Source: an uncultured Bacteroidia bacterium (GTDB lineage Bacteria > Bacteroidota > Bacteroidia > Bacteroidales > UBA932). Taken from it: a stretch of DNA of 64,000 bases. Position numbers and translations under genes: made by a program. The number at the start of each line of letters is the position of its first letter. Position 1 is the stretch's first letter. The stretch lies in the NCBI GenBank assembly GCA_902794005.1, contig CADBFO010000003.1, positions 41,890-105,889 of the forward strand, in the 5' to 3' direction. The notes beneath the pieces were generated by a model. That model saw nothing but the letters and a program-made list of their open reading frames with translations, made no database searches and was not told the DNA's origin. Shown piece by piece: positions 8,753 to 56,451 of the stretch.

Positions 8753-11593
8753 ATGGAAAAAGGAAAGCGATGGGCGGCCCTGCTGCTCCCCGTTATGTTT
8801 TTTGCCGTCTCCTGCGGCGCTCCGGAGGAAGAATCTTCCCTCTATGAGGTGAATCCGTTTGTGGGCAGCGGCGGAATCGGCCATACCTACCCCGGGGCGA
8901 CGGCTCCGTTCGGTTTGGTCCAGCTGAGTCCGGATACCCGGAATGGCGGATGGATTGCCGCCTCAGGCTATCACGACGAGGACAGCACCATCATGGGCTT
9001 TTCGCATACCCATCTGAGCGGAACGGGCGGCGTGGATTTTGGAGATTTCCTGTTCACGCCCCTGCTGGGGGAAGTCCCCTTGACCGAAGAGGGCTTCCAG
9101 GTCTCCCCGCTCCCTTTTTCCAAACAAAACGAGAAAGCCTTCCCGGGCTATTATTCCGTCGTGCTTCCGGGCGTCACCGTGGAGCTGACGGCGCTTTCCC
9201 GAACCGGCTGCCATTCCTACGGCTTTAATGGGGAAGGGGAACGGCACCTGCTGATAGACCTTCGGCACAATATCGGCGAAACCCGCCCCAGTGACATTTC
9301 CTTCACCGCCGTGGCCGATACCCTCGTGGAAGGCGGCCGTCACGTGGCCGGCTGGGCTCCCGGGCGGGATATCTATTTCAGCGCCCGGTTCTCCGTCCCG
9401 TTCACCCGCTGCGTCCCCGACGGCAAGGACCGATATCTGCTTACTTTCCCGGCAGATACCAAGGGCGTTACCGTTACCGTGGGCCTCTCGCAGGCCAGCG
9501 CGCATGCCGCCCGGCAAAACCGCCTCTCGGAGGCTCCCCGATGCCGGTTCGGCGAAGTGCTGGACCGCTCGAAGGCGCTGTGGGAAGAGCAGCTCGGGAA
9601 AATTGTCATCGAAGGGGGTACCAAGGCCCAAAGGGTCAACTTCCACACGGCTCTTTACCATACCCTGGTGGCTCCGAACCTCATCAGCGACGTGGGCGAG
9701 AGGCCGTTTTATTCCACACTTTCCCTTTGGGATACCTACCGTACCTGGAACCCGCTGCAGACCCTCCTGAATCCGCAGCTGGTGAGCGACATGGCCCGGA
9801 GCCTGGTCCTTACTTACCAGCGGTACGGCAAACTGCCTCTCTGGCCGCTCGCCGGGGTGGACACGGACTGCATGATCGGCTATCACGCCGTGTCGGTCCT
9901 GGCCGATGCATGGCTTCGCGGCATCCGCGGCTTCGACGGGGAAGCGGCCCTGGAGGCCATGGTGGCTTCTTCCAACCTGGATCCGGCTTCGGACTGGTAT
10001 AACGCATACGGCTACATTCCCTGTGATTTCGCTTCCGAATCCGTGTCCCGCACGCTGGAGTTCTGCTACGACGACTGGTGCATCGCCCGCATGGCCGAGG
10101 CTCTCGGGCACCGGGATATCGCCGCGGAGTACGATGCCCGCGCCCTCCGCTACCGCAACCTGCTGGACCCTTCCACCGGCTTTTTCCGGGGCAGGGATTC
10201 CGAGGGCAACTGGCGCAGTCCCTTCAATCCCGACGCCCGTTCCCGGGATTACACCGAGGCTACGGCGTGGCAATACCGGCACTATGTGCCGCAGGACATG
10301 GGCGGGTACATCGCCCTGATGGGCGGCCGGGCGGCGGTGAAAACCTCCCTGGATTCGCTCCTGACGTATGACTTTCGGGATCCGTCCATGGCCGGAGATG
10401 CCAATGTGACGGGCATGATCGGGCAGTATGCCCACGGCAATGAACCCAGCCACGGATCGGCCTGGCTGTATGCCTGTATCGGAGACCCTTCCTCCACGCA
10501 GCGGTGGGTCCGGTACATTCTGGAGGAAATGTATGCCCCCACCCCGGAAGGTATCTGCGGCAACGAGGACTGCGGCCAGATGAGCGCCTGGTACGTGATG
10601 GCCTCGCTGGGCCTGTACCCCCTCTGCCCCGGCAGCGGAGAGTTTGTGCTGGGGGCTCCGCTTTTCCGGAAAGCCACGCTGAATCTTCCCGGAGGAAAGA
10701 GCTTTGTCATCAAGGCCGACCATCCCGAATACGCTTTTGTGAAGGAGGTTCTTCTGAACGGGAAAAGGGTTGAGGAACAATTTATTACATACGAGGATAT
10801 CCTGAGGGGCGGCGAACTCTCCTTCCAACTTTCCAAGAAGCCTTTCCCCGGACGGGATGCTTTCCGGCCCCCGTATTCCATGACTGGGGAGAACCTGGTC
10901 TCCACGCCTGTCCTTCTGGGAAATCCCCGATTTTTCAAAGGCACTTTCCGGACGGAGTTCGACTGCCGTACTCCCGGTGCGGAGATCCGTTACACCCTGG
11001 ACGGCAGCGAGCCCACGGAGACTTCGGCCTTGTATGAGGGGGCTTTCCCTATCACGGATGAGGCAATCCTGAAAGCAAGGGCTTTCCGTGAGGGAATGAC
11101 TCCCAGCCCGCTGATGGAGTGCCGGGTGTTCCCGCTGGTGATTCATCCTGCCGTGCCGGCGCCCGCCTCCCTGGCACCGGGATGCCGCTACACTTATCAC
11201 CGGGGCTTTTTCAAGATGACGGCCGATGTGGTGGCTTCTCCGGCGGTCTCGCGCGGGGTGATGCCGGAACCGTCCATCCTGGACGCTCCCGACGAGGACC
11301 ATTTCGGCTACATTTTCACCGGTTATCTGGATGTTCCCGAGGAGGGCCTTTGGGAATTCGCCATCACCAGTGACGACGGATGCGTGCTGGAGATCGACGG
11401 CCATCTGGCCGTGAATGCCGACGGATCCCATTCCAATTCCACCGCTACGGGATTCATCGGCCTCGCGAAGGGCCTGCATGCCTTCACGCTCCGGTACCTC
11501 GAAGACTATGAGGGACAATATTTGGAGTGGAAGTGGAGAAGTCCTTCTTCGGAGGGCTTTGCCCTCATTCCCGTGTCGGCCATTTCCCGCTAG
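8753..11593 (+). CDS. GH92 family alpha-mannosidase lipoprotein with chitobiase C-terminal-like and PA14 domains
   Basis: This is a 946-residue lipoprotein (lipobox AVSC near residue 21). An in-frame ATG at 8711 exists, but it overlaps the previous gene and lacks a signal peptide, so I chose 8753. The GH92 core runs from VNPFVGSGGIGHTYPGA (~30) to ~700 and carries the family motifs FSHTHLSGTG, GNEPSHG (E564) and CGNEDCGQMSAWY (D606). GH92 enzymes are calcium-dependent exo-alpha-mannosidases. A small domain with YTLDGSEPTE matches the chitobiase/hexosaminidase C-terminal sandwich. A final PA14-like domain (DEDHFGYIFTGYLDVPEEG, SDDGCVLEIDG) probably binds sugar. The same architecture recurs in the minus-strand gene at 37555-40407, so the two are paralogues. 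The linkage specificity is unknown. Confidence 0.9.
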   Translation: MEKGKRWAALLLPVMFFAVSCGAPEEESSLYEVNPFVGSGGIGHTYPGATAPFGLVQLSPDTRNGGWIAASGYHDEDSTIMGFSHTHLSGTGGVDFGDFLFTPLLGEVPLTEEGFQVSPLPFSKQNEKAFPGYYSVVLPGVTVELTALSRTGCHSYGFNGEGERHLLIDLRHNIGETRPSDISFTAVADTLVEGGRHVAGWAPGRDIYFSARFSVPFTRCVPDGKDRYLLTFPADTKGVTVTVGLSQASAHAARQNRLSEAPRCRFGEVLDRSKALWEEQLGKIVIEGGTKAQRVNFHTALYHTLVAPNLISDVGERPFYSTLSLWDTYRTWNPLQTLLNPQLVSDMARSLVLTYQRYGKLPLWPLAGVDTDCMIGYHAVSVLADAWLRGIRGFDGEAALEAMVASSNLDPASDWYNAYGYIPCDFASESVSRTLEFCYDDWCIARMAEALGHRDIAAEYDARALRYRNLLDPSTGFFRGRDSEGNWRSPFNPDARSRDYTEATAWQYRHYVPQDMGGYIALMGGRAAVKTSLDSLLTYDFRDPSMAGDANVTGMIGQYAHGNEPSHGSAWLYACIGDPSSTQRWVRYILEEMYAPTPEGICGNEDCGQMSAWYVMASLGLYPLCPGSGEFVLGAPLFRKATLNLPGGKSFVIKADHPEYAFVKEVLLNGKRVEEQFITYEDILRGGELSFQLSKKPFPGRDAFRPPYSMTGENLVSTPVLLGNPRFFKGTFRTEFDCRTPGAEIRYTLDGSEPTETSALYEGAFPITDEAILKARAFREGMTPSPLMECRVFPLVIHPAVPAPASLAPGCRYTYHRGFFKMTADVVASPAVSRGVMPEPSILDAPDEDHFGYIFTGYLDVPEEGLWEFAITSDDGCVLEIDGHLAVNADGSHSNSTATGFIGLAKGLHAFTLRYLEDYEGQYLEWKWRSPSSEGFALIPVSAISR

Positions 11594-11693
11594 AAAGCCG
11601 ATTGTCATTTCTCAAAGTTTTTTTGGCGAAAACAAAAGAGATCCGGTGACGGATTTTTCCTATCTTGTATGGCGTGAATTTAACCCTACAGTT

Positions 11694-13877
11694 ATGAAGA
11701 TATTTGTTTCCGCTTTTTTCCTTGTGCTGGCCCTCGGTTTTCTGCAGCCGGCCGGCGCCCAATCCGTTATTGTTGAAAGCGCCCGTTTCTGCAAAGGGGA
11801 CAACCCCGCCTGGCAGAAGGCCGATTTTGACGACAGTGCCTGGCAGGTGCTCGCCTTGGACAAAGACTGGTTCCAGCAGGGTGTCCGGAATGCCAATGCT
11901 TACGGCTGGTACCGCCTCCATGTGGTGATTCCTTCCTCGCTGAAAGGAGGTGTCACCGGAGACATCCTTCTGGACATGGGCCCCATCGATGACACCGATG
12001 AGACCTGGCTCAACGGACACCTGGTGGGGAAGACCGGCCGCAATCCCAAGGAGGAAGGCGGTTTCGAAGGCAAGTGGGATACCCCCCGCCGTTATGTGGT
12101 TTCCCCTGAATGGGTGCGCTGGGACGAAGAGAACGTTATCGCCGTCCGCGTTTACAACGGTGGAGAACCCGGAGGCTTCTATGCCCAGCCTGTCAACATT
12201 ACCAGGCCGGAGTTGAAGGACTATGCGGGCATCACGCTGGAACGCAAGGGAAATGAATGCGTGGCCACTCTGAGCAGCCGTATCAAGACCGGCGGGACGG
12301 TGGAAGCGCAGCTAAGGGATGTCCTTACCGACGAATTGCTCTCTTCCAAGACTTGGAAAGTCCGCCCGACCGGCAAGAAGGACCTCAGCTTCCCGCAGTC
12401 CTTCCGGGAGGGTGTCCGGGTGGTCTTTTCCTATCGGGACGACAAGTTTGACGATTTCCTGGAAGCGAATATATGCGCTCCCTATATCCTCACTCCGCCC
12501 GCACCGGCTACGCCCCGCTACAACGGTCCGCTGGTGTTCGGTGTACGGCCCGGTTCTCCGGTCATCTTCCGTCTGGCCTTCTCCGGGGAGAAGCCTATGA
12601 CCTACAAAGCGGAAGGCCTTCCCGAGGGCGTTGTGCTGGATTCCGGGAAGGGCGTTCTCAGCGGCAGCGTCAAGGAGGAGGGAGACTATCCGATCGTTTT
12701 CACCGCCACCAACGCCAAGGGAAGCACCAGCGCTTCCTTCACCCTCAAGGTGGGCGCCCGGATCGCCCTCACCCCGCCCATGGGCTGGAATTCCTGGAAC
12801 TGCTGGGGCACCAGCGTATCGCAGGAAAAGGTGATGGCATCGGCCGTCGCCCTCATCAACCGCGGCCTGGCCGACTATGGCTACAGCTACATGAACATTG
12901 ACGATGCCTGGGAGGCTGACGAGCGCGCCGCCGACGGCACCATTCTCACCAACGAGAAGTTTCCCGACATGAAGGCTCTGGCCGACTGGCTGCATGGAAA
13001 CGGACTTCGCCTGGGCATCTATTCCAGTCCCGGAAGCCACACCTGCGGCGGCTATCTGGGTTCCCTGGGCCATGAGGAGCAGGATGCCAAAACCTGGAAC
13101 GAATGGGGTATCGACTATCTCAAATACGACTGGTGCGGCTACAACAAGGTTTTTGCCGCCAGCAGCGACCGCTCCACCGCCGCCTACATGCGTCCTTATG
13201 TGAAGATGCAGCAGTTCCTCCGCGAGCAGCCCCGTGACATTTTCTATTCCCTCTGCCAGTACGGCATGAACCATGTGTGGGAGTGGGGAGCCTTTGTCGA
13301 TGCCAACTCCTGGCGCACCACGGGCGACATCAACGACACCTGGGCTTCCCTCTACGACATCGGCTTCGTTCGGCAGGCGGGTCTCCATCCCTATGCCGGC
13401 CCCGGCCATTGGAACGACCCCGACATGCTGGTGGTGGGCAAGGTGGGCTGGAGCGACAAGCTCTGGGACAGCCGCCTCACCCCGGACGAGCAGTACACCC
13501 ACATCTCCCTGTGGTCGCTGCTGGCCGCCAACATGCTCATCGGCTGCCCGCTGGACCAGATCGACGATTTTACCTTCAACCTCCTTTGCAACAACGAGGT
13601 GAATGCCGTGAACCAGGATATCCTGGGGCATCAGGCTCACCAGGACGTGGTGGAGGACAACGTCCAAATCTGGAGCCGGGACCTTTACGACGGCGGCAAG
13701 GCCGTGGGCATCTTCAATCTGGGCGAGGCCGTCATGCCCACCCTTCTCAGGGGCGCCCTGGAGAAAATCGGCATCGAGGCCGATACCGTCCGGGACCTCT
13801 GGCGCCAGAAAGACATTCCTACTGATTCCGTGTACCAGATTCCTTCGCACGGTGTCCTGTATGTTAAAGTGAAGTAG
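11694..13877 (+). CDS. GH27 family alpha-galactosidase-like enzyme with N-terminal jelly-roll and Ig-like domains
   Basis: The protein has 727 residues and a signal peptide (MKIFVSAFFLVLALGFLQPAGAQ). Residues ~25-180 form a galactose-binding-like sandwich (KADFDDSAWQV, DTDETWLNG). Residues ~285-360 form an Ig-like domain (VLSGSVKEEGDYPI). The GH27 barrel begins at LTPPMGWNSWNCWG. The nucleophile D479 sits in YLKYDWCGYN and the acid/base candidate D545 in TTGDINDTW, with GHWNDPDMLVVG after it. GH27 enzymes retain configuration and remove alpha-galactose or related sugars. The frame is open upstream into the GH92 gene, but only the ATG at 11694 yields a signal peptide and respects the 100 bp gap. 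The adjacent GH106 gene starts directly after the stop. Confidence 0.9.
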   Translation: MKIFVSAFFLVLALGFLQPAGAQSVIVESARFCKGDNPAWQKADFDDSAWQVLALDKDWFQQGVRNANAYGWYRLHVVIPSSLKGGVTGDILLDMGPIDDTDETWLNGHLVGKTGRNPKEEGGFEGKWDTPRRYVVSPEWVRWDEENVIAVRVYNGGEPGGFYAQPVNITRPELKDYAGITLERKGNECVATLSSRIKTGGTVEAQLRDVLTDELLSSKTWKVRPTGKKDLSFPQSFREGVRVVFSYRDDKFDDFLEANICAPYILTPPAPATPRYNGPLVFGVRPGSPVIFRLAFSGEKPMTYKAEGLPEGVVLDSGKGVLSGSVKEEGDYPIVFTATNAKGSTSASFTLKVGARIALTPPMGWNSWNCWGTSVSQEKVMASAVALINRGLADYGYSYMNIDDAWEADERAADGTILTNEKFPDMKALADWLHGNGLRLGIYSSPGSHTCGGYLGSLGHEEQDAKTWNEWGIDYLKYDWCGYNKVFAASSDRSTAAYMRPYVKMQQFLREQPRDIFYSLCQYGMNHVWEWGAFVDANSWRTTGDINDTWASLYDIGFVRQAGLHPYAGPGHWNDPDMLVVGKVGWSDKLWDSRLTPDEQYTHISLWSLLAANMLIGCPLDQIDDFTFNLLCNNEVNAVNQDILGHQAHQDVVEDNVQIWSRDLYDGGKAVGIFNLGEAVMPTLLRGALEKIGIEADTVRDLWRQKDIPTDSVYQIPSHGVLYVKVK

Positions 13878-49045: not shown

Positions 49046-50035
49046 TTACTCGTCGATGTTCACGATGCGGTAATCGGCCTTTCCGAGCCCGATGGAGACG
49101 GCATAGTCGATAATGTGCGTGCCGTGCTGGCGGTTGATGCGGTCCTGAAGGGGTTTGGCGTCATCGCCCTTCCGGGAAGGATAGGAGAACACCAGGTCCA
49201 GGCAGGCTTTGTCCAGGGCCACCGGGTCAGTGGATGCCAGAATGCCGATATCGGAGAGGCGGGGCTTGTCCGGATGGCCGTCACAGTCGCAGTCCACGGA
49301 CATGTTGTTCATCACGTTGATATAGACGATGTTCTTGCCGAAATGGTTGGCGACGGCCTGGGCGGCAGCGGCCATGGACTCCAGGAAGGCATCCTGCTCG
49401 GCCGTAATCCAATGATCCTGCGATTCGCCGGCGGAATGGATGTAGAACTTTCCGGCCGTGGACGCGAAGCCGATGCTCTGGTTCTTGAGAACGCCGCCGA
49501 AACCACCCATGGCGTGTCCCTTGAAGTGCGCCAGGTTGATGACAAAGTTGTAGTTCCGGATGTTTTTGCCGACGATGTCGTACTGGATGTGCTTTTTGTC
49601 GAGGACCGGAATCCGGATGTCGCCATCCTCATCCATGATATCGACCGGTGCCACCGCCTCAAAGCCGCGTTCCGCGATGGCCTTGCGGTGGTCTTCCGTC
49701 TTCATGCGGGAACCGCTATACGCCGTGTTGCACTCGATGAGCGTGCCGTTAACGGCCTTTACGAGCGGGGCGATGAGTTCCGGCCGCAGATAATGGGATT
49801 TGGCCGATTCGCCGGTACTGATTTTTACGCCCACCTTGCCTTCGGGCTTGCAGCCCAGGGCATTGTAGATATTCAGGAGCCCTTCCGGACTGATTTCGGA
49901 GGTGAAATAAACGATGGGGGCGTCGGGGCTTTCGCTGCTGGAAACCGGTACCACCGGTTGCATGCGCGGGCTTGTCTGGGTGGAGCCGCAGGCGACAAGC
50001 GCCAGGGCTACGAGGGGAAGAAATATCTTTTTCAT
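49046..50035 (-). CDS. DUF362 domain lipoprotein
   Basis: The protein has 329 residues. An in-frame ATG 54 nt upstream exists, but MKKIFLPLVALALVACGS at 50035 gives a lipoprotein signal, and the promoter lies between the two. The DUF362 core includes VGVKISTGES, NTAYSGSRMKTEDHRK, NLAHFKGHAMGGFGGVLKN and SIGFASTAGKF. A short Cys/Asp stretch (DCDCDGHPDKPR) could bind a metal. DUF362 proteins are often linked to iron-sulfur or redox functions, but no reaction is established here. Confidence 0.85.
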   Translation of the reverse strand: MKKIFLPLVALALVACGSTQTSPRMQPVVPVSSSESPDAPIVYFTSEISPEGLLNIYNALGCKPEGKVGVKISTGESAKSHYLRPELIAPLVKAVNGTLIECNTAYSGSRMKTEDHRKAIAERGFEAVAPVDIMDEDGDIRIPVLDKKHIQYDIVGKNIRNYNFVINLAHFKGHAMGGFGGVLKNQSIGFASTAGKFYIHSAGESQDHWITAEQDAFLESMAAAAQAVANHFGKNIVYINVMNNMSVDCDCDGHPDKPRLSDIGILASTDPVALDKACLDLVFSYPSRKGDDAKPLQDRINRQHGTHIIDYAVSIGLGKADYRIVNIDE

Positions 50036-50058
50036 TCGTAATAGGGTTCTGTTGCAGG

Positions 50059-50091
50059 CAAATTTAATCATTCTCCGCTTTTTCAGCAAAA
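50059..50091 (-). promoter_or_regulatory. Bacteroides-type promoter for the DUF362 gene
   Basis: On the minus strand TTTTG (50087-50091), a 20 bp spacer and TAAATTTG (50059-50066) match the consensus. Transcription should start about 18 nt before the ATG at 50035, which supports that start over the earlier one. Confidence 0.75.
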
Positions 50092-50476: not shown

Positions 50477-52591
50477 ATGAAAAAGACCCCTGAAACCTAT
50501 CCCTGGAAGTTCGCCTCCGTAGGCGGAGCCGTGCGTGTAAACATCCAGAGCGGAGAAGACATCCGTCATCTGGGAGAACTGGACCGCAAGATGTGGACGG
50601 TCCTCAGCTGCCCTGTCGAGGGCCTGGAATTCGATGCCAGGACCCTTCAGCTCATTGATACCGATGCCGACGGCAAGATTCGCGTGGACGAAGTGATCAA
50701 GACCGCCCAGTGGCTCACCCGCGTCCTCAAAAATCCGGATGAACTGCTCAAGGAAGGGGATACCCTCGCTTTTTCGGAGTTCAACACCGAGGATCCGGAC
50801 GGTGCCCGTCTCCTTTCATCGGCCCGGCAGATTCTGGCCAACCTCAAGCTGGAGAAGGATTCCATCTGCATGGAAGATACGGCTGACAATGTGAAGATTT
50901 TCGCCGAGACCCGCTTCAACGGAGACGGTATCATCACCCCGGCCACGGCCGATGACGAGGCCACCGCCGGACTCATCGAAACCATTGCCGGCATTGCCTC
51001 GGCCACGGATCGAAGCGGTGTCCCCGGCATCACGGCAGACCATGTGGAAGCCTTTTACACCGCCTGCACGGAATATGCGCAGTGGCAGAAGGCCGGCACC
51101 AAGGAAGTTTTCCCCTTCGGTGACAAGACGGCCGATGCCCTTGCCGCCGTCAACGTCCTGAAGGATAAGGTGGCCGACTATTTCATGCGCTGCCGTCTCA
51201 TCGGCTTTGACGCCGCCGCGGCGGAAGCCGTCGATGTGAGCGTCGAGAAGATTGCCGCCATCGAGGGCAACCTTGCCGCCGCTTCCGATGAAATCGGCCT
51301 GCAGCCCCTTGCCAAGCCTTCGGCCGACGGGAAACTGGCCCTGAATGCCGTGAACCCCGCCTGGAAGGCCGCCGTGGACAATATGGTTGCATTGGTGGGT
51401 ATTCAGAAAGAGACGATAGACGAGGCCGGCTGGACGGACATCCTGGGCCGCTTCGCCCCGTACACCGCCTGGATGGATGCCAAGCAGGGCGCCCTTGTGG
51501 AAGGCCTGGGCCTGGAAGCCGTGCAGGCCATCCTGAAGGAGGACAAGAAGGCCGTTCTCCTGGACCTGCTGGAGAAAGACAAGGCCGAGGAAGCCAACGC
51601 CCTTTCCATCGAAGAGGTGGACAAACTCCTGCGCCTGAACAGGTATTTCTACCGTTTCCTGAACAACTATGTGGTCATGGCCGATTTCTACGACTGCGAC
51701 CGCATGGCCATCTTCCAGGCGGGCCGCCTGTACATCGACCAGCGTAGTACGGACCTCTGCGTAAAGGTGGCGGGGCCTGCACCGGCCATATCATCCCTCA
51801 GCGGCATGTACATCCTGTACTGCAGCTGCACCAGCGAGAAACTGGGCAAGAGTTTCAATATCGCCGCCGTCCTTACCGACGGTGATGTCAACGGTCTCCG
51901 CGAAGGGAAGAACGCCGTTTTCTACGACCGTGACGGCGTTGATTACACCGCTACGGTAACTTCCATCGTCGAGAATCCGATTTCTATCCGCCAGGCCTTC
52001 TGGGCACCTTATAAAAAGGCGGCCCGCTGGATCAGCGACAAGATGGACAGGAACGCCGCTTCCAAGAACGAAAAGTCCATGGGGAACCTCACCGCCGCGG
52101 CCGACAGCGCAACGGACGGAAAGGGGGCCGAGGCTGCAGCGGCGGCCAAACCCGGCTTCGATGTGAGCAAGGTGGCGGTCATTTCCATTGCCGCAGCCGC
52201 CGTTTCCGGGGTGCTGCTGGGTGTTGTCGCCGTTCTCAAGGGCCTTACGTGGTGGCAGTGGCTCATTCTCATTGCCGCCGTCATGCTCCTGATCTCCGGT
52301 CCTTCCATGTTCATCGCCTGGCGGAAACTCCGCAAGCGCGACCTGGGTCCGGTCCTCAATGCCAACGGCTGGGCCATCAACGCCGCATCGCTGGTCAATG
52401 TGAAGTTCGGAAAGACCCTCACGTCCTTGGCGCAGTATCCCAAACTCACGGCCGTGGACCCCGAGGAACGGAAGAAAGTCGCCTGGCGCAAGTTCTGGTG
52501 CTGGATGTGCGTAATCGTGGTGCTTCTGTGCCTCGGCCTGTGGCTCTGCAACATCCTTCTCCCTTTAGGACTTAAGAGCCCGCTGTTCTGA
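50477..52591 (+). CDS. Membrane protein of unknown function with an EF-hand motif
   Basis: I do not recognise a family. The 704-residue protein has a textbook EF-hand loop at residues 61-72 (DTDADGKIRVDE), with all acidic ligands and the invariant Gly and Ile, and a degenerate second one (RFNGDGIIT). Residues ~90-420 are mostly helical. Residues ~430-540 are strand-rich (YILYCSCTSEKLGKSFNIAAVLTDGDV). An Ala-rich low-complexity linker leads to three membrane helices (VISIAAAAVSGVLLGVVAVL; WLILIAAVMLLISG; CVIVVLLCLGLWLCNILL). There is no N-terminal signal peptide, so most of the protein should face the cytoplasm. The stop overlaps the start of the ATPase gene (TGATG), which implies coupling. 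A calcium-responsive membrane scaffold is one possible reading. Confidence 0.75.
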   Translation: MKKTPETYPWKFASVGGAVRVNIQSGEDIRHLGELDRKMWTVLSCPVEGLEFDARTLQLIDTDADGKIRVDEVIKTAQWLTRVLKNPDELLKEGDTLAFSEFNTEDPDGARLLSSARQILANLKLEKDSICMEDTADNVKIFAETRFNGDGIITPATADDEATAGLIETIAGIASATDRSGVPGITADHVEAFYTACTEYAQWQKAGTKEVFPFGDKTADALAAVNVLKDKVADYFMRCRLIGFDAAAAEAVDVSVEKIAAIEGNLAAASDEIGLQPLAKPSADGKLALNAVNPAWKAAVDNMVALVGIQKETIDEAGWTDILGRFAPYTAWMDAKQGALVEGLGLEAVQAILKEDKKAVLLDLLEKDKAEEANALSIEEVDKLLRLNRYFYRFLNNYVVMADFYDCDRMAIFQAGRLYIDQRSTDLCVKVAGPAPAISSLSGMYILYCSCTSEKLGKSFNIAAVLTDGDVNGLREGKNAVFYDRDGVDYTATVTSIVENPISIRQAFWAPYKKAARWISDKMDRNAASKNEKSMGNLTAAADSATDGKGAEAAAAAKPGFDVSKVAVISIAAAAVSGVLLGVVAVLKGLTWWQWLILIAAVMLLISGPSMFIAWRKLRKRDLGPVLNANGWAINAASLVNVKFGKTLTSLAQYPKLTAVDPEERKKVAWRKFWCWMCVIVVLLCLGLWLCNILLPLGLKSPLF

Positions 52592-53739
52592 TGGACACCC
52601 CTTTCCCGTATGCCCAGTATGTAACCGGCAAGCAGTTCGTCGGGCGTAAAAATGACGTGACGCTCCTGGGAAACCTCCTTTCCCAGGGAGAGCACGTGAC
52701 CATTTATGAACCGCCCAAAACCGGCATCACCTCACTGGTGCAGCAGACGCTGTTCAACATGCGGCTGGGCGGCAAGTCCTTCATGGTGGGGCAGTTGTCG
52801 GCTCTCAACATCCGCACGCCGGAGGCGTTCCTGCTTCGCCTGGGCTCCACGCTGATGAGGATGGTGGCTTCCGTTCCGGACGATTATGTGAAAATGACGC
52901 AGCGGTATCTCGGGGGGACACATTTTGTTTTCGATCCCCGTGCCTATGCCGAGACCGGACAGGTGTTGTCACTGGGGTGGGAACTGGACCGGGACGACAT
53001 CCTGGCCATGCTGCGGATGCCTTTCCGCCTGGCTGCCGACCGGGGAGACCGCCTTTTTCTCATCATCGACGAATTCCAGTGCCTGAGCCTTCTGGAAGAC
53101 CCCGACGTGCTGTTGCGGCCGCTGGACGCCGTCCTCCGGGATGAGCGGGACCCCCGCCTTTTCTCCTACATTTTCTGCGGGAGCGGCGTAAATGCCATGA
53201 TGGGCATCTTCGAAGGGAGTCTCCTGTTCCACCGGGTGGTGGAAAGGGTGCGCATTTCTCCGGCCGGGGAGCGTGAGATATCCGATCACGTGCAGCGGGG
53301 TTTCCTGGCCGGAGGCAAGGTTGTGAACCAGGAGCTCATTCTGGGGGCCTGTCGCCTGTTCCGGGGAAACCTCTGGTACATCAACCACTTCTGCGCCATC
53401 TGTGATGCCATGAGCCGTGGATACATCATGGAGCCGGTTTTCGTGGAAGCGCTGGAGGATTTGGTGTCCCTGCACGAGCCTCGTTTCAAGGAAATCGTCA
53501 ACGGACTCACCACGCACCAGGTGAACCTTCTCAGGGCAACGGTGGAGGGTGTTACCCGTTTCTCGTCGGCCGATGTAATCCGGAAATACGGTCTCAATTC
53601 GTCGGCCAACGTCAAGCGCGTAAAGGATGCCCTGATGAGGAAGGAAGTGCTGGTTTTTGACGAAAATGACACGCCCTCGCTCATGGACCCTCTCTTCGAG
53701 TACTGGGTGAAGAAGTATTATTTTGAGATACCCCAATGA
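52591..53739 (+). CDS. AAA/STAND-type ATPase with degenerate Walker A and C-terminal winged helix
   Basis: This 382-residue protein resembles the archaeal-type ATPases common in Bacteroidota. The P-loop reads YEPPKTGITSLVQQ (41-48 region): where relatives have GKTS there is GITS, so the key lysine is replaced by I46. Walker B is intact (LFLIIDEFQ), and a sensor-like FSYIFCGSGVNAM follows. The C-terminal ~90 residues look like a winged helix (VNLLRATVEGVTRFSSADVIRKYGLNSSANVKRVKDALMRKEVL). It overlaps both neighbours (TGATG upstream, ATGA downstream), so the three proteins should be made together. It may bind nucleotide weakly or act as a scaffold. Confidence 0.8.
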   Translation: MDTPFPYAQYVTGKQFVGRKNDVTLLGNLLSQGEHVTIYEPPKTGITSLVQQTLFNMRLGGKSFMVGQLSALNIRTPEAFLLRLGSTLMRMVASVPDDYVKMTQRYLGGTHFVFDPRAYAETGQVLSLGWELDRDDILAMLRMPFRLAADRGDRLFLIIDEFQCLSLLEDPDVLLRPLDAVLRDERDPRLFSYIFCGSGVNAMMGIFEGSLLFHRVVERVRISPAGEREISDHVQRGFLAGGKVVNQELILGACRLFRGNLWYINHFCAICDAMSRGYIMEPVFVEALEDLVSLHEPRFKEIVNGLTTHQVNLLRATVEGVTRFSSADVIRKYGLNSSANVKRVKDALMRKEVLVFDENDTPSLMDPLFEYWVKKYYFEIPQ

Positions 53740-54443
53740 AAAAACTCGTGATTCTGACCGGGGCCGGCGTGTCGGCCGAAAGCGGTTTTGCCACCTTCCG
53801 CGATACGGGCGGCCTGTGGGAGCAATATGACGTCAACGACGTGGCTTCCATCGAAGGCTGGTACCGCAACCGGAAACTGGTGCTGGATTTCTACAACCAG
53901 CGCCGGGCGCAGTTGAAGGATGCCAGGCCCAACGAGGCCCATCTGGCCATGGCCCGGCTGGAAAAAGACTACAAGGTAAGCGTCATCACGCAAAATGTGG
54001 ACAATCTGCACGAGCGGGCCGGCTCCACCTATGTCCTGCATCTTCACGGCGAACTCACCAAAGTGCGCCCGGAGAACGGCCTCTATGACCGCACTGAATC
54101 GGAGGCGGAAGTCATCGACGTGGGCTACCGGCCCGTTCATCTTGGAGACCTGGCCCCGAACGGCAGCCAGCTGCGTCCGCACATCGTCTTTTTCGGGGAG
54201 GCCGTTCCCCATATCGGCAAGGCCATCGACTTGGTGGAAGAGGCCGATATCCTCCTGATTGTCGGCTCCTCGCTGCAGGTGTACCCGGCTGCCGGGCTGT
54301 ACCGTTACGCTCCCAACGATTGTCCGATCTATGTGATTGATCCCAAACCGGTTCCCATCGCGGATCCCCGCGTCACCCTCATCACCGATGTTGCCACCAA
54401 AGGCATGATCCGCTTCCGGGAACTCCTGTCCAGTGGCAAGTAA
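53736..54443 (+). CDS. cobB: Sir2-family NAD-dependent deacylase lacking zinc cysteines
   Basis: This 235-residue sirtuin has GAGVSAESGFATFRD, TQNVDNLHERAG and LHGEL, which form the NAD site and catalytic His. Y53 and R56 (FYNQRRAQL) match the YxxR pair that favours succinyl- and malonyl-lysine in class III sirtuins. The four zinc-binding cysteines are absent; the only Cys is in NDCP near the C-terminus. The zinc module region (KVRPENGLYDRTESEAEV) is polar instead. The start codon overlaps the ATPase stop in ATGA. The symbol is by family resemblance; cellular targets are unknown. Confidence 0.85.
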   Translation: MKKLVILTGAGVSAESGFATFRDTGGLWEQYDVNDVASIEGWYRNRKLVLDFYNQRRAQLKDARPNEAHLAMARLEKDYKVSVITQNVDNLHERAGSTYVLHLHGELTKVRPENGLYDRTESEAEVIDVGYRPVHLGDLAPNGSQLRPHIVFFGEAVPHIGKAIDLVEEADILLIVGSSLQVYPAAGLYRYAPNDCPIYVIDPKPVPIADPRVTLITDVATKGMIRFRELLSSGK

Positions 54444-54546: not shown

Positions 54547-55818
54547 TTAGTCAATCCGGTCAAAGCCGGTGTAGGGACGGAGAACTTCCGGAATTTCAAT
54601 GTATCCGTCTTTCTGGTTGTCTTCCAGAAGGGCTGCCACTACGCGCGGAAGGGCGAGGGAGCTGCCGTTGAGGGTATGGACCAGCTGGGTTTTGCCCGTC
54701 TCGTCCTTGTAGCGGCACTTGAGGCGGTTGGCCTGGAAACTTTCAAAGTTGGAAACGGAGGAAATCTCCAGCCACCGGCCTTGGGCTGCGCTCCAGAGCT
54801 CGAAGTCGTAAGTGATGGCCGAGGTGAAGCTCATGTCCCCGCCACAGAGGCGGAGAATGCGGTATTTGAGCCCCAGGGCGTTCACGAGGCCTTCCACATG
54901 GGCGATCATCTCGTCCAGGGCGGCATAGCTGTTCTCGGGCTTCTCGATGCGCACGATTTCCACTTTGTCGAACTGGTGCAGGCGGTTGAGGCCACGCACA
55001 TCCTTGCCGTAGGAGCCGGCCTCCCGGCGGAAGCAGGGAGTATAGGCCGTAAGTTTCTGCGGGAAATCGTCGGCTCCCAGGATAACATCCCGGAAAATAT
55101 TGGTGACGGGCACTTCCGCGGTGGGAACCATGTAGAAACCGTCCAGGGGAGCCAGGTACATCTGGCCTTCCTTGTCGGGCAACTGGCCGGTACCGAAACC
55201 GGAAGCGGCGTTCACCATCACGGGCGGCTCCACCTCCTTGTATCCGGCGGCCGTGTTGCGGTCCAGGAAGAAGTTGATGAGGGCGCGCTGCAGGCGGGCA
55301 CCTTTGCCTTTATACACAGGGAAACCGGCTCCGGTAATCTTCACGCCCAGGTCGAAGTCGATGATGTCGTACTTCTTGGCAAGATCCCAGTGGGGAAGGG
55401 CGCCTTCGGGAAGGTTCACCTCCGGGCCGCCCGTCTTTACCACAACGTTGTCCTCGGCGCCTTTTCCTTCAGGAACCTGGTCGCAGGGGATGTTGGGAAG
55501 CAGGGCCAGCAGTTCGTTCAGCTTGGCGTTGTTGTCATCGGCCATCTCCAGCAGCTCACTGGAACGGGCCTTGAGTTTGGCCACCTCGGCCTTGGCGGCT
55601 TCGGCCTCCTCTTTCTTGCCTTCTTTCATGAGCTGGCCAATCGCGGTGGCCGCCTTCTTCTGCTCTGCCAGAAGGGCGTCGCTGCTGGTTTGGAGGGCCT
55701 TGCGATGGTCGTCCAGGACAATGATTTTGTTCACGATGTCCCGGGCATCGAAGTTTTTAACAGCAAGTCTCCGGATGACAAAATCCGGAGACTCGCGTAG
55801 AAGTTTTAATGTCAGCAT
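54547..55818 (-). CDS. serS: Seryl-tRNA synthetase
   Basis: This 423-residue class II synthetase charges tRNA-Ser. The N-terminal coiled-coil arm (KALQTSSDALLAEQKKAATAIGQLMKEGKKEEAEAAKAEV) binds the tRNA. Motif 2 lies in CFRREAGSYGKDVRGLNRLHQFDKVE and motif 3 in LNGSSLALPRVVAALLEDNQ. It starts 3 bp after the rpmA stop, so it shares the rplU-rpmA transcript. A perfect 11 bp inverted repeat lies in codons ~9-18. Confidence 0.96.
   Translation of the reverse strand: MLTLKLLRESPDFVIRRLAVKNFDARDIVNKIIVLDDHRKALQTSSDALLAEQKKAATAIGQLMKEGKKEEAEAAKAEVAKLKARSSELLEMADDNNAKLNELLALLPNIPCDQVPEGKGAEDNVVVKTGGPEVNLPEGALPHWDLAKKYDIIDFDLGVKITGAGFPVYKGKGARLQRALINFFLDRNTAAGYKEVEPPVMVNAASGFGTGQLPDKEGQMYLAPLDGFYMVPTAEVPVTNIFRDVILGADDFPQKLTAYTPCFRREAGSYGKDVRGLNRLHQFDKVEIVRIEKPENSYAALDEMIAHVEGLVNALGLKYRILRLCGGDMSFTSAITYDFELWSAAQGRWLEISSVSNFESFQANRLKCRYKDETGKTQLVHTLNGSSLALPRVVAALLEDNQKDGYIEIPEVLRPYTGFDRID
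55766..55793 (-). repeat. Perfect 11 bp inverted repeat inside the serS start region
   Basis: In the mRNA the arms AGTCTCCGGAT and ATCCGGAGACT flank the 6 nt loop TTTGTC... read as TTTTGTC at the junction, and form a stable hairpin. It encodes part of the serS N-terminus, so both coding and pairing constraints act on it. Confidence 0.8.
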
Positions 55819-56103: not shown

Positions 56104-56415
56104 TTAAGCGATAGCGTCGATGTGGATCTTGGTGAGCTTCTGGCGATGGCCATTGAGCGTCTGGAAACCCTTGCGACGGATTTTCTTGAATACGAGCACT
56201 TTCTTTGCTTTGGCATCATCGTCCAGGACGGTGGCCTTCACAACGGCTCCTTCTACATACGGAGTACCGACCTTTACGGCGCCCTCATTGTCCACGAGGA
56301 GCACTTTGTCGAACTCTACAGATTCTCCGTTCTTCGCGCTGAGGCGGTTTACGAAGATGTCCATGCCAGCTTCTACTTTAAACTGCTGGCTTGCAATGTC
56401 AACGATTGCGTACAT
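56104..56415 (-). CDS. rplU: Large ribosomal subunit protein bL21
   Basis: This 103-residue protein starts MYAIVDIASQQFKVEAG, the standard bL21 opening, and ends with the C-terminal KGFQTLNGHRQKLTKI motif that contacts 23S rRNA. The frame is open 21 codons further upstream, but that part is the transcribed leader with a hairpin, so 56415 is the start. First gene of rplU-rpmA-serS. Confidence 0.97.
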   Translation of the reverse strand: MYAIVDIASQQFKVEAGMDIFVNRLSAKNGESVEFDKVLLVDNEGAVKVGTPYVEGAVVKATVLDDDAKAKKVLVFKKIRRKGFQTLNGHRQKLTKIHIDAIA

Positions 56416-56451
56416 TGTACAAAAACTTGTTAAAAGTTTGGACCGTAAGCG

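Follow-up and report, generated by a model that had tools for sequence, protein, structure and literature searches.

Conserved motifs of the SIR2 domain bind NAD and supply the catalytic histidine of sirtuins, and the tyrosine and arginine of the YxxR pair belong to the acyl pocket. Escherichia coli CobB and the class III (SIRT5-like) sirtuins are the described proteins closest to the sirtuin treated here. SIR2 proteins without a zinc site have been reported in acetic acid bacteria (PMC11820453). The second protein of our locus resembles the ATPase_2 family (PF01637), with the archaeal structures 2qen and 2fna. Among the matches listed in the open-licence literature, no paper dealt with zinc-less sirtuins of Bacteroidia, with an ATPase-sirtuin pair or with the EF-hand membrane family described below.

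The locus lies in a 64-kb window of DNA from an uncultured Bacteroidia bacterium (contig CADBFO010000003.1), and all coordinates are positions in this window. It consists of three complete reading frames, all uninterrupted and on the forward strand, coding for P0001, P0002 and P0003. As the initial annotation had claimed, the genes overlap, the first two by TGATG at 52589-52593 and the last two by ATGA at 53736-53739. The features are as follows:

50477..52591, + strand, gene of the EF-hand membrane protein P0001 (704 aa; open reading frame)
50657..50692, + strand, canonical EF-hand loop, residues 61-72 (strict EF-loop pattern; helix-loop-helix in the AF2 model)
50918..50929, + strand, NGDG of a second, degenerate EF-like loop
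52175..52546, + strand, three predicted transmembrane helices, residues ~567-587, 592-616 and 667-690 (hydropathy; AF2 helices)
52591..53739, + strand, gene of the ATPase_2-like protein P0002 (382 aa; open reading frame; AF2 model)
52708..52731, + strand, degenerate Walker A, EPPKTGIT, residues 40-47
53068..53073, + strand, Walker B Asp160-Glu161
53506..53730, + strand, C-terminal part, including the best-conserved stretch of the protein, SSANVKR...DPLFEYW (low column entropy)
53736..54443, + strand, gene of the zinc-less CobB-type sirtuin P0003 (235 aa; open reading frame; SIR2 profile match)
54051..54170, + strand, segment matching the zinc-cysteine region of E. coli CobB, without cysteine
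54547..55818, - strand, serS (context only)
between serS and the L21 gene, gene of ribosomal protein L27
56104..56433, - strand, gene of ribosomal protein L21 (context only)

The SIR2 domain covers most of the length of P0003 (profile E 5.1e-41). The motifs GAGVSAESG, TQNVDNLH, HLHG and YNQR are all present, and Y53 and R56 align with the YxxR pair of E. coli CobB, in agreement with the initial annotation, which had stated that the NAD site and this pair were kept. The same annotation noted the loss of the zinc cysteines; the loss stands, but it is typical of related sirtuins, 84 of the 86 distinct homologues parsed having no CxnC pair (one more, unparsed and outside the 86, shows a single cysteine in its stretch). 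Outside the genus this survey covered 41 loci, 12 from the order and the 29 best-scoring from a phylum sample, the latter at about 50% identity and above. Among the relatives examined, a sirtuin without zinc cysteines is ordinary. As P0003 lacks the four cysteines of the structural zinc site, it would be a zinc-less variant working like the class III family rather than a full member of it. Its closest NCBIfam and PDB matches are CobB-type deacylases; the NCBIfam models among them score below their cut-offs. No ATPase-like match was found within ~1-1.5 kb on each side of any of the 41 loci outside the genus, so that the sirtuin does not seem to have a general need for an ATPase partner.

The AF2 model of P0002 (mean pLDDT 82.6) matches the archaeal ATPases 2qen (E 8.1e-11) and 2fna (E 3.2e-9) and has the ATPase_2 fold, with GIT in place of an intact GK[S/T]; a Pfam search gave no match of P0002 to the PF01637 profile. 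When three of its paralogues were scanned with this profile, two scored above the cut-off and the one from the window genome just below. The C-terminal part, modelled as helices and short strands, may be a winged helix. Isoleucine (Ile46) replaces the Walker A lysine while Walker B (IIDEF) is intact, as had been noted for this protein; the retained Walker B counts against the reading, given below, of P0002 as a non-hydrolysing partner.

A comparison of the P-loop among relatives showed that the lysine loss does not extend to the orthologues as a rule: the lysine is present in 50 of 56 and absent in 6, and isoleucine occurs at this position only in the window genome and one other among the genomes read. 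The 56 do not include five genomes (fragments or unfetched genes), two loci with lysine and one with isoleucine (L068), which was added for the tree. The remainder of the site is altered more often. GK[S/T] is intact in 29 of the 56 and lost in 27, the Walker B Asp-Glu pair is altered in 27, and both are intact in 20. A spectrum of states exists inside one genus; on the ATPase tree the lysine state changes at least 7 times. All 28 sampled paralogues (20-26% identity, chosen from ~58 low-identity rows, mostly better-scoring) have GK[S/T], and 27 have the Walker B Asp-Glu as well. The wider pattern among the orthologues is one of decay of the nucleotide site. For 10 selected ATPase pairs, a simple counting script gave low dN/dS ratios of 0.02-0.15. 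GK[S/T] is intact in 23 of 25 ATPases with an adjacent EF gene versus 6 of 32 others, a comparison with two independent pairs, too few to claim a link; given the 23 of 25, nucleotide binding may still matter in the EF-linked ATPases. Sirtuin adjacency set against ATPase motif state gave three pairs on starred tree branches and no significance.

The initial annotation described P0001 as a protein with a textbook calcium loop and three C-terminal membrane helices that fits no family, and each of these points is upheld. The loop DTDADGKIRVDE (residues 61-72) is the sole match to the strict EF-loop pattern in six frames of the 64-kb window, and in the AF2 model (mean pLDDT 81) this DxDxDGxI...E loop is flanked by helices 54-60 and 70-83. 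D61, D65 and E72 are conserved in 45 of 45 rows, G66 in 43 and I68 in 42, and degenerate loops are found among more distant relatives. The second, EF-like loop retains NGDG in 45/45 rows and has a non-acidic residue at its first position. Since the canonical loop is conserved, Ca2+ binding by P0001 is plausible, and the basic loop between membrane helices 2 and 3 suggests that the EF domain is probably cytoplasmic. Neither P0001 nor P0002 reached a Pfam, NCBIfam, PADLOC or PHROG family at curated cut-off or significant E-value; their Pfam matches are weak (E 0.04-0.2 only), that of P0001 to EF-hand_5 being sub-threshold at E 0.09. A Foldseek comparison of the P0001 fold with the PDB gave no match at E<=0.001. 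P0001 represents a large EF-hand membrane family: scanning one collection confirmed at least 577 stretches of it, and it has no counterpart above cut-off in the family libraries searched or, at E 0.001, among solved folds.

A SIR2 domain, an ATPase_2 fold and a membrane protein superficially fit an NAD-consuming anti-phage system built of SIR2, a STAND-like ATPase and a membrane component, and a defence-like role had been suggested for the locus. We consider it highly improbable. No protein of a described SIR2-based anti-phage system was matched, the best PADLOC hit having E 0.01 over a short stretch, and the closest NCBIfam and PDB matches of P0003 are the deacylases named above. P0001 has nothing significant in PADLOC, PHROGs, plasmid and phage collections, P0002 has no match in PADLOC and PHROGs, and P0003 matches a general Sir2 PHROG family. 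Besides, the locus lies beside ribosomal-protein and tRNA-synthetase genes, and in one sample of 23 genomes from the same class all but one had a sirtuin match.

Gene order was compared in 49 genomes, mostly drafts, of one gut Bacteroidales genus. All three genes are present in 32 of them and mutually adjacent in 7, of which 6 fall within a single clade of the ATPase tree and the seventh was not part of it. The ATPase and sirtuin genes are adjacent in 30 of the 43 genomes that have both; as most genomes are drafts, some of the 13 unlinked cases may be contig ends, and in at least one a contig break is the cause. For pairs on the same strand, 43 of the 47 rows have junctions between -8 and 32 nt, sirtuin starts being approximate; the other four measure 80, 80, 80 and 1192 nt (two of the 80s are one contig counted twice). 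Their order is kept while the flanks vary: relative to L21-L27-serS, in the 40 of 46 ATPase-bearing genomes counted, the pair is divergent, co-directional or convergent, the last only in EF-clade loci. It is the ATPase-sirtuin pair, not the trio, that is conserved as a unit.

A three-part, Ca2+-responsive membrane complex controlling deacylation, working as one machine in the EF clade, had also been suggested, and we find it unlikely. The tight coupling of the genes is real and recurrent: with starts set by alignment, the EF and ATPase genes overlap or lie at most 6 nt apart in 25 of the 28 trio rows, which count two or more contigs twice. The conserved loop in a probably cytoplasmic domain would suit such a complex. 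However, the EF and ATPase genes are adjacent in only 7 of the 35 genomes that have both, and unlinked in 28, some of which may be contig ends of drafts; unlinked genes in relatives are what the initial annotation had named as a refuting outcome. Among the 28 are G003 and G014, with EF proteins at 68 and 72% identity to P0001. At two loci (L139 and L141) with a 69% identical EF protein, there is no ATPase or sirtuin gene within 8 kb on each side. The unlinked genomes and the absence of partners at these two loci argue that the EF protein is independent of the operon. The EF state changes twice on the ATPase tree, and the EF gene was presumably gained by the operon rather than lost from it.

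Outside trio loci the EF gene has varied neighbours, among them genes for a glycosyltransferase group 1 protein, TetR, SDR, pseudouridine synthase, an outer-membrane beta-barrel, a metallophosphoesterase, a nitroreductase and others. We rejected these neighbours as a guide to function, because those identified are unrelated. A genus from outside the class has the EF gene after a VTC-containing unit in three genomes, too small a number for conclusions.

We propose, with a probability of roughly 0.4, that the locus is an operon for a housekeeping deacylase and an ATPase that is turning into a non-hydrolysing partner, and that in one clade the EF gene has come to stand at its front. In most sampled genomes of the genus a two-gene operon, often beside L21-L27-serS, would encode a protein derived from ATPase_2 together with a CobB-type deacylase that lacks the zinc cysteines and uses normal NAD-dependent sirtuin chemistry. 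With fold and C-terminal domain retained and the nucleotide site decayed, the ATPase-like protein would most likely be a binding or scaffolding subunit and not a motor, and might position or regulate the sirtuin. Against this partnership count the 13 genomes in which the two genes are unlinked and three trio-clade loci (L132, L145 and L150) where no sirtuin was found in the ~6.8 kb beyond the ATPase. The EF membrane protein heading the operon in one clade could anchor it to the membrane or provide a Ca2+ input. The structure and conservation of the operon, the decay of the ATPase motifs and the motifs of the sirtuin are directly seen; complex formation, regulation and Ca2+ input are what we infer beyond them.

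The same linkage could also have arisen without a shared mechanism, if a housekeeping deacylase merely shares its expression with an ATPase_2 paralogue that is drifting, and the EF gene landed in the operon in one clade. This is a serious contender, short of even odds: in other families the sirtuin is found with no orthologue of the ATPase, the EF gene keeps many unrelated companions, and ATPase and sirtuin are apart in 13 of 43 genomes. Against it stand the pair order and mostly tight spacing kept despite varying flanks, and an ATPase present in 46 of the 49 genomes with low dN/dS. A fuller version of the proposed operon, in which an ATPase on its way to a non-catalytic regulatory subunit serves the sirtuin as its dedicated partner and one clade has added a membrane Ca2+ sensor, appears doubtful. 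If the partner reading is true, the genus would offer a natural series of one sirtuin-adjacent protein, its nucleotide site ranging from intact to broken, which could probe both the turn from ATPase to regulator and a dedicated partner of a bacterial sirtuin.

Among the known systems, the SIR2 proteins reported without a zinc site in acetic acid bacteria belong to another bacterial group, and the available excerpt of that report mentions no ATPase or EF-hand partner (PMC11820453). ATPase_2 proteins have a fold like that modelled for P0002, whereas P0002 itself has no significant match to the family and the motifs are often lost in its orthologues. E. coli CobB has zinc cysteines that P0003 and nearly all related sirtuins examined do not possess, yet it and the class III sirtuins share with P0003 the SIR2 domain, the NAD and catalytic-histidine motifs and the YxxR pair.

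Three genes on the forward strand of the window had been described in the initial annotation as overlapping; all three are complete, and the overlaps are as described. They and their neighbours are:

49046-50089, reverse strand, DUF362 protein gene, upstream of the trio
50477-52591, forward strand, EF-hand membrane protein gene
52591-53739, forward strand, ATPase_2-like gene
53736-54443, forward strand, sirtuin gene
54547-55818, reverse strand, serS
56104-56433, reverse strand, L21 gene

Across 49 genomes of the genus, 36 were found to carry the EF-hand gene, 46 an ATPase orthologue and 44 the sirtuin gene. The ATPase gene adjoins the sirtuin gene (same strand, within 200 nt, from match coordinates) in 30 of the 43 genomes having both, and the EF-hand gene adjoins the ATPase gene in 7 of 35. 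Around the ATPase gene at 40 loci, the sirtuin gene follows on the same strand in 29, lies on the other strand in one and is absent from the DNA examined in ten. Relative to the housekeeping genes L21, L27 and serS, 11 of the 29 same-strand pairs are divergent from L21, 9 run into it on the same strand, 3, all carrying the EF-hand gene, converge on serS, one lies downstream of serS and 5 have none of the three nearby. Because pair order is the same in these varied L21/serS orientations, we read the ATPase-sirtuin operon as having been held together while its flanks were rearranged. Outside the genus, none of 41 sirtuin loci had an ATPase-like match within about 1-1.5 kb of flank.

The EF-hand family is large and scattered: a scan of one collection gave at least 577 confirmed stretches. 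Nearly all of the 80 listed matches come from Bacteroidales or Bacteroidia, many of rumen or gut origin, with one record labelled Proteobacteria; in a phylum sample, 5 of 118 genomes carry the family, the window's own included. An ATPase orthologue lies directly downstream at 21 of these 80 named loci, some of whose contigs also belong to the 49-genome set, so that the two counts are not additive. In all 21 the EF-hand protein is at least 66% identical to that of the window. The reverse does not hold, since two loci at 69% (L139, L141) have neither partner gene within 8 kb on each side, and two genomes (G003, 68%; G014, 72%) carry the EF-hand gene on another contig. The sirtuin gene is also present in the flanking DNA examined for 17 of the 21; of the other four, L131 is a short contig, and in L132, L145 and L150 the gene is absent from about 6.8 kb beyond the ATPase gene. 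At 25 of 28 EF-ATPase junctions, with starts placed by alignment and three not at ATG, the genes overlap or are separated by 6 nt or less (one-base overlap in 15 of the 25). On a tree of 57 ATPase orthologues and 4 paralogues, the EF state changes twice, and the scattered places of the EF-hand gene elsewhere suggest that it may have joined the operon later.

At one trio locus (L133, about 11260-12459), the ATPase and sirtuin genes are about 1.2 kb apart, which suggests an insertion. At 11 loci (L053, L054, L056 and others, some being one contig present twice), the solo EF-hand gene is followed immediately, on its own strand, by a member of a single protein cluster; all four members scanned are group 1 glycosyltransferases. 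Three genomes from a single genus that lies outside the class (L262, L263, L264, about 3.3-9.8 kb) have the EF-hand gene 3' of a VTC-domain (polyphosphate polymerase-like) gene, with a DUF4956 gene between them in both loci scanned for it, L262 and L264; this arrangement may hint at a link with polyphosphate or calcium handling.

The EF-hand protein itself (704 aa) matched no family above cut-off in profile library searches, and a structure comparison gave no match to a solved fold with an E-value of 0.001 or lower. It contains one canonical EF loop, the sole strict match in six frames of the window, with a conserved NGDG downstream, and ends in three hydrophobic helices. Basic loops indicate the cytoplasmic side of a membrane protein (the positive-inside rule). 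As the loop joining helices 2 and 3 has on average 8.4 basic against 0.7 acidic residues (45 rows), the EF domain is predicted to be cytoplasmic.

The structure model of the ATPase-like protein (382 aa; pLDDT 82.6) has fold matches in two archaeal ATPases, 2qen and 2fna. Two of three paralogues scanned pass the PF01637 cut-off; the third, from the window's own genome, falls short with a score of 28.8 against 33.2. Counting that of the window, 50 of 56 distinct orthologues have the Walker A lysine, and in the others it is replaced by C (2), I, T, R or V (1 each); G014, beyond the 56, likewise has Ile. The position after the lysine holds Met, Lys, Arg or Asp in 23 of the 56; 29 retain GK[S/T], and 20 retain both GK[S/T] and the Walker B Asp-Glu. 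In 28 paralogues, hand-chosen from a longer match list, GK[S/T] is intact in all and Asp-Glu in 27. The tree requires at least 7 changes for the lysine, 7 for GK[S/T] and 9 for Walker B, counts that are approximate because several deep branches are long and weakly supported. The nucleotide site as a whole is thus decaying across orthologues. The protein is nevertheless still constrained: dN/dS is low (10 chosen pairs gave 0.02-0.15, some with dS above 1), and conservation is highest in its C-terminal third. Such a pattern fits a protein losing catalysis while keeping shape and surface, although GK[S/T] is kept in 23 of 25 EF-linked rows.

Going beyond how the genes are laid out, how far they are conserved and what state their motifs are in, we infer that the best reading is a deacylase operon whose ATPase-derived partner may no longer need hydrolysis, joined in a single clade by the EF-hand membrane protein.

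The sirtuin is CobB-like, with active-site motifs present and zinc cysteines absent; its best NCBIfam models are deacylases, scoring below their own cut-offs. A sirtuin was matched in 22 of 23 same-class genomes of one phylum sample and, in the relatives set, in 30 of the 32 genomes that belong to other families of the order, five of these matching only a more distant type. Most genomes of family f48 in the phylum sample are without a match. The missing zinc cysteines, presented in the initial annotation as an odd trait, are usual among these relatives, since the zinc segment lacks any CxnC pair in 84 of the 86 distinct homologues that were parsed; of the two exceptions, one has a single pair and the other, a different sirtuin type at 32% identity, all four cysteines. 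Sirtuins without the zinc site are also reported from acetic acid bacteria (PMC11820453).
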